DNA of 64,000 nt from the NCBI RefSeq assembly GCF_900109175.1, contig NZ_FNZE01000006.1:62001-126000 (forward strand), given 5' to 3'. Numbering within the stretch: the stretch's first letter is position 1; each line of letters begins with the position of its first letter. Below, piece after piece: positions 25,768-29,102 of this stretch. Source of the stretch: Pseudomonas linyingensis (lineage in GTDB: Bacteria > Pseudomonadota > Gammaproteobacteria > Pseudomonadales > Pseudomonadaceae). The notes below the pieces were generated by a model. The model was given only the letters and a program-made list of their open reading frames with translations. It ran no database searches and was not told where the DNA came from. The translations under genes and the position numbers were made by a program.

Positions 25768-25816
25768 AGCGAGTTCGCAAGAATGGCAGCGGCAAGGCGA
25801 AAAACATGTCATAAAA

Positions 25817-25845
25817 TTGACTGACGCCAGCCTTTTGGCTTTACT
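25817..25845 (+). promoter_or_regulatory. sigma-70-type promoter for fleQ
   Basis: TTGACT at 25817-25822 and TTTACT at 25840-25845, separated by exactly 17 bases, about 90 bases before the fleQ ATG. P. aeruginosa fleQ is also transcribed from a sigma-70 promoter. Confidence 0.55.
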
Positions 25846-25931
25846 GCGTGCACTCTTCGAGTGCACCTGCCGAACGCCGTGAACAAGACGCGCCCCGGCA
25901 GCCTCTCCAGCCAGTCTCAAGCCGAGCAATC

Positions 25932-27404
25932 ATGTGGCGTGAATCCCGAATCCTGCTGATCGACGACAACCTGCAACGCCGCCATGACCTGGCGGTAATC
26001 CTGGATTTTCTCGGCGAGCCATGCAGCAGCTGCAGCAGCAGCGACTGCGCCGCCGTGCTGGCCCCGCTGGAGTCCCATCAGCTGTCCTGCGTGCTGCTCG
26101 GCCAGGTCGACAGCAAGGGCGGCGCCCCGCGCCTGCTCAAGCAGCTGGGCGCGCCGACGGAGAATCTGCCGCTGCTGCTGATCGGCGAGCAGGCCACGGC
26201 CGACTGGCCGGAAGCGTTGCGCCGCCGCGTGCTGGCGCGCCTCGACATGCCGCCGAGCTACAACCAGCTGCTCGACTCGCTGCATCGCGCCCAGGTCTAC
26301 CAGCAGGTGTTCGACGTCGCCCGCGAGCGGGGGTTGCAGCGCGAATCCAACCTGTTCCGCAGCCTGGTCGGCACCAGTCGGGTGATCCAGCAGGTGCGCC
26401 AGCAGATGCAGCAGGTGGCCGGCACCGAGGTCGGCGTGCTGCTGCTCGGCGAGTCCGGCACCGGCAAGGAGGTGGTGGCGCGCAACCTGCATTACCACTC
26501 CGGTCGCCGCGAGTTCCCGTTCGTGCCGTTCAGCTGCACGGCGATCGCTCCCGAGCTGGTGGAGAGCGAGCTGTTCGGCTACGAGCCCGGCGCCTTCGTT
26601 GGCGCCATCTCCAGCCACAAGGGGCGCCTCGAACTGGCGGCGGGGGGCACGCTGTACATCGACGAGGTGGCCGACCTGCCGGCGGACCTGCAGGTGCGTC
26701 TGCTGCGGGTGCTGCAGGAGGGCCGCTTCAAGCGTCTCGGCAGCGAGGAAGAGCATCCGATCGACGTGCGGGTGATCGCGGCCAGTCGGCACGACCTGGA
26801 GCAGCGCGTGGCCGAGGGCAGCCTGCGCGACGATCTCTACTACAGCCTCAACCAGTTTTCCATCGAGCTGCCGCCGCTGCGCGAGCGGGTCGAAGACATC
26901 CCGCTGCTGATCAACGAGCTGATCGCCCGCCTGGAACATGAGAAGCGCGGCTCGATCCGCTTCAGTTCGGCGGCCTTGATGTCGCTGTGTCGCCACGACT
27001 GGCGCGGCAACGTGCGCGAGCTGGCCAATCTGGTCGAGCGCCTGGCGATCATGCATCCCTACGGGGTGATCGGCGTCGCCGAGCTGCCGAAGAAGTTTCG
27101 CCATATCGACGACGAGACAGCGCGCCAGAGCGACGGCTCGTATGGCGAGGCCGCCGAATCGCGGGGGCTGGCGGAAGGCAGCCTGCCGGGGCTGGATGCG
27201 CCGGCGCTGCTGCCGGTCGGTGGCCTGGATCTCAAGGACTACCTGAACAGCCTCGAGCGTTCGCTGATCCAGCAGGCGCTGGATGATGCCGGCGGGGTGG
27301 TGGCGCGCGCCGCCGAGCACCTGCGGGTGCGGCGTACCACGCTGGTGGAGAAGATGCGCAAATACGGCATGGGCCGGCGCGACGACGAGGAAGGGGAACT
27401 CTAG
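25932..27404 (+). CDS. fleQ: FleQ, cyclic-di-GMP-responsive regulator with altered sigma-54 motif
   Basis: A 490-residue enhancer-binding-type regulator, the same length as P. aeruginosa FleQ. Domains: N-terminal FleQ receiver-like domain (1-120), AAA+ domain (about 140-375), Fis-type helix-turn-helix at the C terminus ([20 protein letters not shown]). Walker A GESGTGKE is at 173-180. LFRS at 141-144 and R184-N185, which contact cyclic-di-GMP in the P. aeruginosa protein, are present. The sigma-54-contacting GAFTGA loop reads GAFVGA at 220-225 and the second Arg of the R-finger region is Ser305 (YYSLN), so sigma-54 activation is doubtful. Start ATG 25932 begins [12 protein letters not shown] as in FleQ; the longer frame from 25848 is not conserved. 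fleN overlaps its stop. Confidence 0.92.
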
Positions 27405-28279
27405 TGGGCTGCCAGTCTGTGGGAGCGCGTGTGGGCCTGGCCAAGGCTCTGCCCAGGCCCGTGCAGGTGATCGCCATCGCCAGCGGCAAGGGCGGCGTCG
27501 GCAAGACCCAGACGGCGATCAACCTCGCCTGGGCGCTGGCGGCGCGCGGGCGGCGGGTGATGTTGCTGGATGCCAGTTTCGCCCTGCCCAACGTCGATAC
27601 CGCGCTCGGTCTGACCCCGCGGCACACGCTGCAGGACGTCCTGGCCGGGCGCTGCCGTCTGGCCGATGCCCTGCTGGGCGGACCGGGCGGCGTGCAGGTG
27701 ATCGCCGGTTCGGCCGCGGCGGGCGCGGTGGCCGAGCCGAGTGCGCGTCAACTGGCCGGCCTGATCCGCGCCTTCAGCGAGCTGCCGGAGCTGCCGGATG
27801 TGCTGCTGATCGACACCGCGCCGGGCATCGGTCTCGGCGTATCGAGCATGCTGCAGGCGGCCAGCGAGGCGTTGCTGGTGGTCAACGACGAGCCGGCGGC
27901 CCAGGCCGATGCGCTGGTCCTGCTGCGGCGCCTCAACGAGCAATACGGCATGACCCGTTTCCGCCTGCTGGTCAGCATGACCTTCGCCCAGCAGGAAGGC
28001 CGGGCGTTGCACGAGCGTCTGCTGCGCCTCAGCGAGCCGCTGGCCGGCGTGGTGCTGGACTATGTGGGCGCGATTCCCTTCGACGACGCCCTGCGCCGCG
28101 CGGTGCAGCGCCAGCGTCCGCTGCTCGAGATATTGCCGCGCAGTCGCGCCGCCCTGGCCTTCGCGGCGCTGGCCGAGAAGGTCGACGGCTGGCCGCTGCC
28201 GGCCAACCCGCGCGGTCACTTGGAGTTCTTCGTCGAGCAGATGATCGCCGCGCAGGCGATGCCGCGGCTCGGCGGCTGA
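27404..28279 (+). CDS. fleN: FleN, MinD-like ATPase antagonist of FleQ
   Basis: A 291-residue ParA/MinD-family ATPase that in Pseudomonas binds FleQ, limits flagellar number and takes part in FleQ control of polysaccharide genes. The deviant Walker A KGGVGKT is at 29-35, followed by VMLLDASFALPNVD, the phosphate-loop segment LLIDTAPGIG, and the near-invariant FleN tail WPLPANPRGHLEFFVEQM. The start is taken as GTG 27404, overlapping the fleQ TAG and preceded by AGGAAGGGG; GTG 27431 is an alternative that would give a length closer to known FleN. The order fleQ-fleN with coupling is unusual, as is the absence of flhF before it and fliA after it. Confidence 0.9.
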   Translation: MGCQSVGARVGLAKALPRPVQVIAIASGKGGVGKTQTAINLAWALAARGRRVMLLDASFALPNVDTALGLTPRHTLQDVLAGRCRLADALLGGPGGVQVIAGSAAAGAVAEPSARQLAGLIRAFSELPELPDVLLIDTAPGIGLGVSSMLQAASEALLVVNDEPAAQADALVLLRRLNEQYGMTRFRLLVSMTFAQQEGRALHERLLRLSEPLAGVVLDYVGAIPFDDALRRAVQRQRPLLEILPRSRAALAFAALAEKVDGWPLPANPRGHLEFFVEQMIAAQAMPRLGG

Positions 28280-28324: not shown

Positions 28325-28379
28325 TTAAGCCCGTCATAAGCTGTCGAAAATACGATCTCCGGCCCTCTGGGACGCCATG

Positions 28380-28385
28380 TATAAT
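28380..28385 (+). promoter_or_regulatory. -10 element of the ccm operon promoter
   Basis: A consensus TATAAT followed by GCGCC, about 70 bases before ccmA. No convincing -35 hexamer is visible at 16-18 bases upstream. Because it lies inside the open frame that extends from 28377, it argues that ccmA translation begins further downstream. Confidence 0.5.
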
Positions 28386-28454
28386 GCGCCCCGACCTGGC
28401 TGGGGCACGCCCCGGTCGCCGCTTTCGATTGCTCCGCCGACGGGTAGCCATGCA

Positions 28455-29102
28455 GTGACCAGTCCCTTTCTCGAAGCTGTTGCGCTCGCCTGTGAGCGGG
28501 ACCTGCGCATGCTGTTCGAGCGGCTCGACTTCGCCCTGCACGCCGGCGAGATGCTGCAGATCGCCGGCCCCAACGGCAGCGGCAAGACCAGCCTGCTGCG
28601 CCTGTTGGCCGGGCTGATGCAGCCCACCGAAGGCGAGATCCGCCTGGCCGGCAAACCGCTGGCCGAGCAGCGTGGCGAGCTGACCCGCAACCTGCTGTGG
28701 GTCGGCCATGCCGCCGGCATCAAGGGCCTGCTCAGTCCCGAGGAAAACCTCGCCTGGCTGTGCGCCCTGCATACCCCCGAATCGCGCGAGGCGATCTGGC
28801 GGGCGCTGGAGGCGGTCGGCCTGCGCGGCTTCGAGGATGTGCCCTGCCATACCCTGTCCGCCGGCCAGCAGCGCCGCGTGGCCTTGGCGCGCCTGTACCT
28901 GGATGCGCCGCCGCTGTGGGTCCTCGACGAACCCTTCACCGCTCTCGACAAGCACGGCGTGGCCCAGCTCGAGGAGCATCTGGCCCGCCACTGCGAGCAG
29001 GGCGGCATGGTGGTGCTGACCACCCACCATAGCCTGACGCGCAAGCCGGCCGGCTACCGCGAGCTGGACCTGGCCCAGGCCGGGAGCACCGCCGATGAGT
29101 AA
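28455..29102 (+). CDS. ccmA: heme exporter ATP-binding subunit CcmA
   Basis: A 215-residue ABC ATPase that with CcmB and CcmC powers transfer of heme to the chaperone CcmE during cytochrome c maturation. Walker A is GPNGSGKTS near residue 37, the ABC signature [14 protein letters not shown] near 132, Walker [13 protein letters not shown] near 155. The GTG at 28455 begins the sequence [15 protein letters not shown] shared with other Pseudomonas CcmA; the longer frame from 28377 would overlap the promoter. A short ATG-CAG-TGA overlaps the GTG out of frame. ccmB starts eight bases before the ccmA stop. Confidence 0.9.

Follow-up and report, generated by a model that had tools for sequence, protein, structure and literature searches.

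The fleQ locus described here raises the question of what a FleQ protein can still regulate once the threonine by which it contacts sigma-54 has been replaced and its flagellar gene neighbourhood has been lost. It was analysed in a stretch of 64,000 nucleotides from Pseudomonas linyingensis, a soil bacterium, which is referred to below as the window. The initial annotation had proposed that this FleQ can no longer act at sigma-54 promoters and has become a dedicated c-di-GMP-responsive regulator of surface polysaccharide. The data presented below suggest a wider reading, to which we give a probability of roughly two in three, namely that FleQ and FleN of the genus Geopseudomonas together form a c-di-GMP-responsive regulator without sigma-54 output and probably without ATP turnover by FleN.

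The features of the locus are collected in Table 1. The window FleQ is ca. 70% identical to that of P. aeruginosa and matches PF06490 (FleQ N-terminal domain), PF00158 (Sigma54_activat, AAA+) and PF02954 (HTH_8, Fis HTH), all above the Pfam cut-off, while NCBIfam returned no FleQ or FleN model above cut-off, the best rows being other activators and MinD. An earlier in-frame GTG at 25848 was rejected as the start of fleQ since FleQ proteins align from the ATG. The TTGAC element located upstream of the gene, which may correspond to its promoter, was found in 8/8 Geopseudomonas and at 5/5 other FleQ loci, and was unrecognisable upstream of fleQ in the four Azotobacter. Further upstream, the window carries a glutamine-synthetase-family gene and an MFS transporter gene. 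At one Geopseudomonas locus (L115, genome G003), unlike at the others, no match to the MFS gene was detected between the glutamine-synthetase-like gene and fleQ; the same genome is also without a match to the large NAD-glutamate dehydrogenase.

Table 1. Location of fleQ, fleN and their relevant motifs in the window (residue numbers of the window proteins unless indicated).
Feature	Position	Strand	Remarks
Promoter-like element of fleQ, CATAAAATTGACT ... TTTTGGCTTTACT	25806..25845	+	Common to Pseudomonas fleQ upstream regions
fleQ	25932..27404	+	ATG start, 490 aa; REC-AAA+-HTH regulator, P. aeruginosa FleQ orthologue
LFRS motif of the c-di-GMP pocket, residues 141-144	26352..26363	+	Intact
FleQ Walker A GESGTGKE, residues 173-180	26448..26471	+	Intact
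R184-N185 (P. aeruginosa R185-N186), c-di-GMP/ATP pocket	26481..26486	+	Intact
N202S (P. aeruginosa numbering)	26532..26534	+	Glutamate-switch partner, equivalent to PspF N64
GAFVGA for GAFTGA (T224V), residues 220-225	26589..26606	+	Val223 is GTT at 26598-26600
R306S (Ser305 in the window)	26844..26846	+	Second arginine of RxDLYYR
Fis-type helix-turn-helix of FleQ	27303..27362	+	Kept
fleN (FleN/FlhG orthologue)	27404..28279	+	GTG as candidate start, in overlap with the end of fleQ
FleN residue 58 (P. aeruginosa switch-I D48)	27575..27577	+	Ser in the window
FleN C-terminal tail WPLPANPRGHLEFFVE	28180..28236	+	Kept
ccmA (ABC ATPase)	28377..29102	+	ABC_tran; CcmB and CcmF come next; delimits the lost flagellar region on its far side

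Judged from the matches of its FleQ locus, the window would belong to the genus Geopseudomonas and not to Azotobacter: the nearest loci among named genomes include that of Pseudomonas oryzagri, a species assigned to Geopseudomonas (Pseudomonas_K of GTDB) by PMC10797017. Both genera are sisters, with a support of 0.997, in a tree of the NAD-glutamate dehydrogenase based on 24 genomes, the gene being present in 24 of the 30 that were searched. The genus labelled g17 was recognised as Azotobacter because one of its genomes, G058, matches both published A. vinelandii fleQ primers with 0 mismatches; its fleQ frame has 501 codons, the length given in PMC12022260. Residues were counted in eight Geopseudomonas genomes, four Azotobacter and 103 other distinct FleQ, the latter after removal of two duplicate rows (L069 and L125). 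Positions are given hereafter in P. aeruginosa numbering, which is that of the window FleQ plus one. The offset relative to PspF is 138 (E246/E108, R300/R162), so that T224, N202 and R306 of FleQ are equivalent to T86, N64 and R168 of PspF.

The coordinates and residues given by the initial annotation for GAFVGA, Ser305, the Walker A motif, LFRS and R184-N185 are all correct. Loss of the threonine is not restricted to the window: position 224 is occupied by V, P, P, P, P, P, V and P in the eight Geopseudomonas (V in two, P in six), by S, G, S and S in the four Azotobacter (S in three, G in one) and by T in 102 of the 103 other FleQ, the sole exception being a Ser in Pseudomonas sp. 2FG (L052). 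Neither V nor P occurs among these 103, so that a GAFVGA common in strains whose flagella are driven by FleQ, which would have contradicted the initial annotation, was not seen. A sequencing error or a one-strain oddity was rejected, the change being found in 8/8 genomes under the codons GTT, GTC, CCC or CCG. A second replacement, N202S, which the initial annotation did not describe, occurs in 8/8 Geopseudomonas, with N in 4/4 Azotobacter and 103/103 others. As for the reported loss of the arginine finger, Ser305 does replace R306, but the classical finger in the P. aeruginosa FleQ structure paper (PMC10723142) is R300 of RxDL, which is kept in 8/8 Geopseudomonas. R306 itself is lost in only three of the eight (S in G000 and G006, L in G001) and in one of the four Azotobacter, and is R in 103/103 others. 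The Walker A residues G174, E175, G177, G179, K180 and E181 as well as the ATPase residues K180, D245, E246 and R300 are kept in 8/8 Geopseudomonas. An absence of sigma-54 was rejected, RpoN (PF04552) having been found in 15/15 genomes searched, including the eight Geopseudomonas.

Work on other activators indicates what these replacements may entail. The PspF T86A variant keeps its ATPase and does not engage the sigma-54 closed complex (PMC4132715), and a T to P replacement in GAFTGA inactivated the B. japonicum NifA (quoted in PMC4641369). Together, these point to a loss of output with P and probably with V at position 224, the effect of V being extrapolated from other substitutions; no test of a GAFVGA variant was found in the literature searched. 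Some GAFTGA variants are tolerated in other activators, GAFSGA being listed among them (PMC4641369), and the Ser found in Azotobacter does not prove that output is lost. PspF N64S still engages the closed complex, supports transcription and escapes the negative regulator PspA (PMC4132715), so that N202S by itself need not abolish output. In the text of PMC12022260, the RpoN-interaction and AAA+ motifs of the A. vinelandii FleQ are called conserved; despite this statement, the Azotobacter FleQ (L188, L008 and L189, including A. vinelandii G058) display GAFSGA or GAFGGA. The Walker B replacement D245E was also found in 3/4 Azotobacter FleQ, that of G058 included.

The c-di-GMP pocket presents the opposite picture, as the initial annotation had proposed. 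LFRS is kept in 8/8 Geopseudomonas, 4/4 Azotobacter and 103/103 others, and each of the eight Geopseudomonas and four Azotobacter FleQ retains ten pocket residues, R138, L142, F143, R144, S145, R151, R185, N186, E330 and R334; the Geopseudomonas FleQ is accordingly predicted, from residue identity, to bind the nucleotide. Glu332, a pocket residue in PMC10723142, was left out because Ile occupies this position in the P. aeruginosa FleQ fetched. Conserved columns, defined by an identity of at least 97% among the other FleQ, were scored as changed when different in at least 4/8 Geopseudomonas or at least 2/4 Azotobacter. In Geopseudomonas, 34/132 were changed within residues 138-312 versus 7/122 elsewhere (Fisher p 1.2e-5), and in Azotobacter 25/132 versus 5/122 (p 3.2e-4). 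Nine of ten divergent other FleQ had fewer changes in 138-312 than in the rest, the tenth (L032) having three in each. None of the 38 conserved columns in 395-490 was changed in Geopseudomonas, in line with the retention of the Fis helix-turn-helix noted initially. These counts place the bulk of the damage in the ATPase core with its sigma-54 loop and not in the DNA-binding end. The fleQ frame is open in all eight genomes and its dN/dS in four Geopseudomonas pairs (0.150, 0.191, 0.192 and 0.313) is well under 1, which together with the fleN values given below shows that both genes are under purifying selection; it lies above those of both comparison pairs (0.099 and 0.015), suggesting that constraint has been relaxed.

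The gene that follows fleQ, which the initial annotation did not connect with it, encodes a product 55% identical to P. aeruginosa FleN, with fleN as top match and FleN as best solved structures. In 8/8 Geopseudomonas, fleN lies directly after fleQ, abutting or overlapping it, and a possible start codon of fleN shares 1-4 bases with the stop of fleQ. Another feature beyond the initial annotation is the loss of FleN Asp48, where seven of the eight Geopseudomonas have S and one has N; the residue is D in the single Azotobacter FleN fetched and in 21/21 others. All eight Geopseudomonas retain K24, the deviant Walker A lysine K19 and the C-terminal tail, which reads PRGHLEFF followed by V or I and then E, as in P. 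aeruginosa, and which interacts with the FleQ active site (PMC10723142). According to that paper, FleN D48A binds ATP, is hydrolysis-incompetent and gave more stable complexes. It also proposes that FleN, by going through cycles of hydrolysis, allows sigma-54 activation of flagellar promoters, and that biofilm promoters are kept repressed by the FleQ-FleN assembly for as long as c-di-GMP has not rearranged it; control of pel is described as sigma-70-dependent and ATP-independent. Work cited in PMC10083355 indicates that FleQ antagonism needs nucleotide binding by FleN and not hydrolysis. The Geopseudomonas FleN may thus bind ATP with little or no turnover; D48S is not D48A, and this expectation is carried over from other substitutions. 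Overall, 53 of 180 conserved FleN columns are changed in at least 6/8 Geopseudomonas and fleN dN/dS is 0.144-0.366, pointing to a protein that evolves fast under constraint. FleN was found in 32/35 genomes (E < 1e-85). Genome G009 has FliF and a GAFTGA FleQ and no FleN orthologue (best E 4.6e-15), a flagellar FleQ apparently without FleN.

None of the eight Geopseudomonas loci, the window included, has fleS, fleR or fliF beside fleQ, and ccmA adjoins fleN in all of them and in L052. By comparison, fleS and fleR were found at 72 of 80 FleQ loci from genome contigs; the other eight correspond to three Geopseudomonas, L052, L073 (which ends with its contig) and three with sugar-type genes downstream. 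In the latter, which belong to the putida group (L078, L091 and L109), sugar-biosynthesis-like genes replace fleSR after fleQ, as judged by protein starts only. FlhC was detected in 7/8 Geopseudomonas and in G023; the 26 remaining genomes gave a single weak match, in G016 (45 bits). These seven Geopseudomonas have one FliF each, located less than 6 kb from FlhC in six, while in the fragmented G005 genome both genes lie on different contigs. The loss of the sigma-54 contact thus coincides across the genus with loss of the FleQ-type flagellar neighbourhood and, in seven of eight, with an FlhC-type system, as expected from the initial annotation. In the remaining genome, that of P. oryzagri (G001), no FliF, FlhC or FlhF match over cut-off was found and fleQ and fleN are kept; this strain is probably without flagella. 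At six loci (L121-L126) fleQ is not beside fleSR, FliF is present in the genome and Thr224 is kept in all six. FlhF-family matches over cut-off occur near the FlhC cluster in several genomes. The open frame holding an FlhF-family match over cut-off (G000:C19:79053-79967 and equivalents) is 775-808 codons long in 6/8 Geopseudomonas and 759 in three Azotobacter, versus 441-454 in six other genomes.

In the FleQ tree, the stem shared by Azotobacter and Geopseudomonas is short (0.057) and their own stems are long (0.34 and 0.33), which suggests that most of the FleQ change took place after both genera had split. A single shared event is therefore disfavoured for most of the FleQ change, despite their sister grouping; the flagellar loss may have been shared or separate. 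Pseudomonas sp. 2FG (L052, 10001-16632) carries another collapsed locus, which has lost almost every flagellar gene between fleQ and ccmA, the order being fleQ, a fliJ-like remnant (62%), a gene for a REC-SpoIIE-phosphatase protein, fleN and ccmA. Its FleQ has GAFSGA, and its FleN, 85% identical to that of P. aeruginosa, keeps Asp48. Since this FleQ pairs with that of L050, a locus that has fleS and fleR, with a support of 0.988, the loss in 2FG is separate from that of Geopseudomonas and Azotobacter, and L052 represents an independent and younger case of the same change.

The search for a regulatory target gave less. PelF (PF11997) was found in 0/15 genomes, in a search that had no Pseudomonas positive control. 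AlgE (PF13372) was found in 4/4 Azotobacter with at least 272 bits, while no full-length AlgE was found in Geopseudomonas, where matches of 19-42 bits cover part of the profile only. Four of these (G001, G000, G006 and G004) are above the Pfam cut-off, so that an alginate-porin-like protein is not strictly excluded. Scans with GTCAATNNATTGAC, which we take to be the FleQ-box consensus, gave nine sites with up to three mismatches in the window versus 7.1 expected and, with at most one mismatch, five places in 4/8 Geopseudomonas genomes versus one for the reversed-pattern control, neither result being clearly above background. Sites L199 and L202 were found in two genomes within the same gap. 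Autoregulation of fleQ is not claimed, the relevant two-mismatch box coinciding with the promoter-like element that is also found before other Pseudomonas fleQ. Of the dedicated polysaccharide regulator put forward initially, the loss of the threonine and the intact pocket hold, whereas neither a pel-type nor an alginate target was recovered, and a role in surface polysaccharide is suggested by analogy with Azotobacter and Pseudomonas.

The following scenario would account for these observations. The FleQ-driven polar flagellar cluster would have been lost from the lineage, an FlhDC-type flagellum being used later or simultaneously, and the surviving fleQ and fleN would have been brought together as an overlapping pair, kept for the sigma-70-type job of FleQ. 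FleQ, having no sigma-54 contact through GAFTGA, could not open sigma-54 promoters. FleN, in the form of an ATP-bound sandwich dimer, would rarely or never hydrolyse for lack of Asp48 and would hold FleQ dimers in a 4:2 repressor form on duplicate FleQ boxes. Binding of c-di-GMP in the intact pocket would then break up this form and free or activate the promoter. Besides the outcome of the target searches and the relaxed constraint on fleQ, a published result counts against this scenario: in A. vinelandii at low c-di-GMP, algD expression was not recovered upon deletion of fleQ (PMC12022260). It is further tempting to regard the switch of Geopseudomonas as a separation of function that arose naturally: the two ATP-driven steps would both be disabled (FleQ output to sigma-54 by the changes at T224 and N202, FleN cycling by the loss of Asp48), and gating would be left to c-di-GMP only. 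Pseudomonas sp. 2FG would have gone part of the way in the same direction, as at least one further and independent instance. This extension is offered tentatively, its chances being somewhat short of even.

Other explanations have to be weighed against this scenario. FleQ and FleN might be relics of the lost polar flagellum, without a job and decaying towards pseudogenes, as the long Geopseudomonas stems in both the FleQ and FleN trees, the fleQ dN/dS above those of the two comparison pairs and the many changed FleN columns would suggest. Yet frames that remain open in all eight genomes with dN/dS of 0.14-0.37 for the two genes, an intact pocket, a C-terminal end of FleQ with 0/38 conserved columns changed in at least 4/8 and an overlap of fleQ and fleN common to the genus are hardly what decay leaves behind. 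In addition, G018 and G034 (genus g12, Pseudomonadaceae), in which no FliF was found, also have no FleQ or FleN orthologue, which indicates that unused copies do get lost and makes this explanation unlikely.

FleQ might on the other hand still activate some sigma-54 promoters, its L1 loop having changed so as to accommodate Val or Pro. RpoN is available in all eight genomes, Walker A and B as well as R300 are unaltered, and both GAFSGA elsewhere (PMC4641369) and PspF N64S (PMC4132715) are functional; the inactive NifA variant, the failure of PspF T86A to engage and the joint change of T224, N202 and, in some, R306, seen only in Geopseudomonas, nevertheless render such residual output improbable. 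More doubtful still is a flagellar role in which FleQ-FleN would repress flhDC or place the FlhDC-type flagellum through FlhF. The FlhF-family matches near the FlhC cluster and the single polar flagellum described for P. aromaticivorans, a Geopseudomonas (PMC9530055), would agree with it, but P. oryzagri has retained both genes with no FliF, FlhC or FlhF match over cut-off, and both swimming and flagellation of an A. vinelandii fleQ mutant are those of the wild type (PMC2885672).

That A. vinelandii FleQ is freed from flagella and represses algD has already been published (PMC12022260, PMC2885672); the new part here consists of the FleQ and FleN lesions of Geopseudomonas and the fleQ-fleN operon. 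No title or abstract in the limited collection of literature searched reports a natural loss of FleN Asp48 or these lesions. As a caution, a Geopseudomonas or Azotobacter protein annotated as FleQ should not be assumed to control flagella. The FleQ-FleN model has yet to settle whether the motility and biofilm roles of FleQ are separable, and PMC10723142 (2023) leaves open how FleQ uses sigma-54 versus sigma-70 at the two classes of promoters. A genus that would have discarded the motility role in the course of evolution and retained the biofilm role offers ready-made proteins for testing this model, and the scenario favoured here predicts that ATP hydrolysis by FleN matters only for the sigma-54 role.

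Among known systems, the A. vinelandii FleQ is alike in that neither flagella nor swimming require it, flagella being run there by FlhDC (PMC12022260, PMC2885672). It binds algD and represses it directly, mutation of fleN likewise leads to a mucoid phenotype, and a repression model resembling that of pel is put forward by the authors (PMC12022260). Unlike Geopseudomonas, A. vinelandii and other Azotobacter have GAFSGA (GAFGGA in one) and not V or P, keep N202 and FleN D48 (one sequence fetched), carry D245E in three of four and AlgE in all four, and have fleQ and fleN unlinked. The best solved relatives are P. aeruginosa FleQ and FleN (PDB 8p53, 8pb9, 5exp and 7ejw; PMC10723142), which share the domain order, the c-di-GMP residues, FleN K19/K24 and the C-terminal tail. 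P. aeruginosa differs by GAFTGA, N202, R306 and FleN D48, and by a fleQ located beside fleSR with fleN far away. There is also a likeness to bEBP-like proteins acting independently of sigma-54, among them Vibrio cholerae VpsR, a c-di-GMP-binding regulator of biofilm genes. VpsR is not known to carry GAFTGA and uses sigma-70. Its entry 7v2b is a distant match to the window FleQ, over residues 144-381 only. Similar in its proposed mode of action is the wss cellulose promoter of P. syringae DC3000, where the model has FleQ and ATP-bound FleN repressing when c-di-GMP is low, with activation when it is high (PMC10083355), with the difference that the DC3000 FleQ also serves flagella, unlike what is proposed here for Geopseudomonas.
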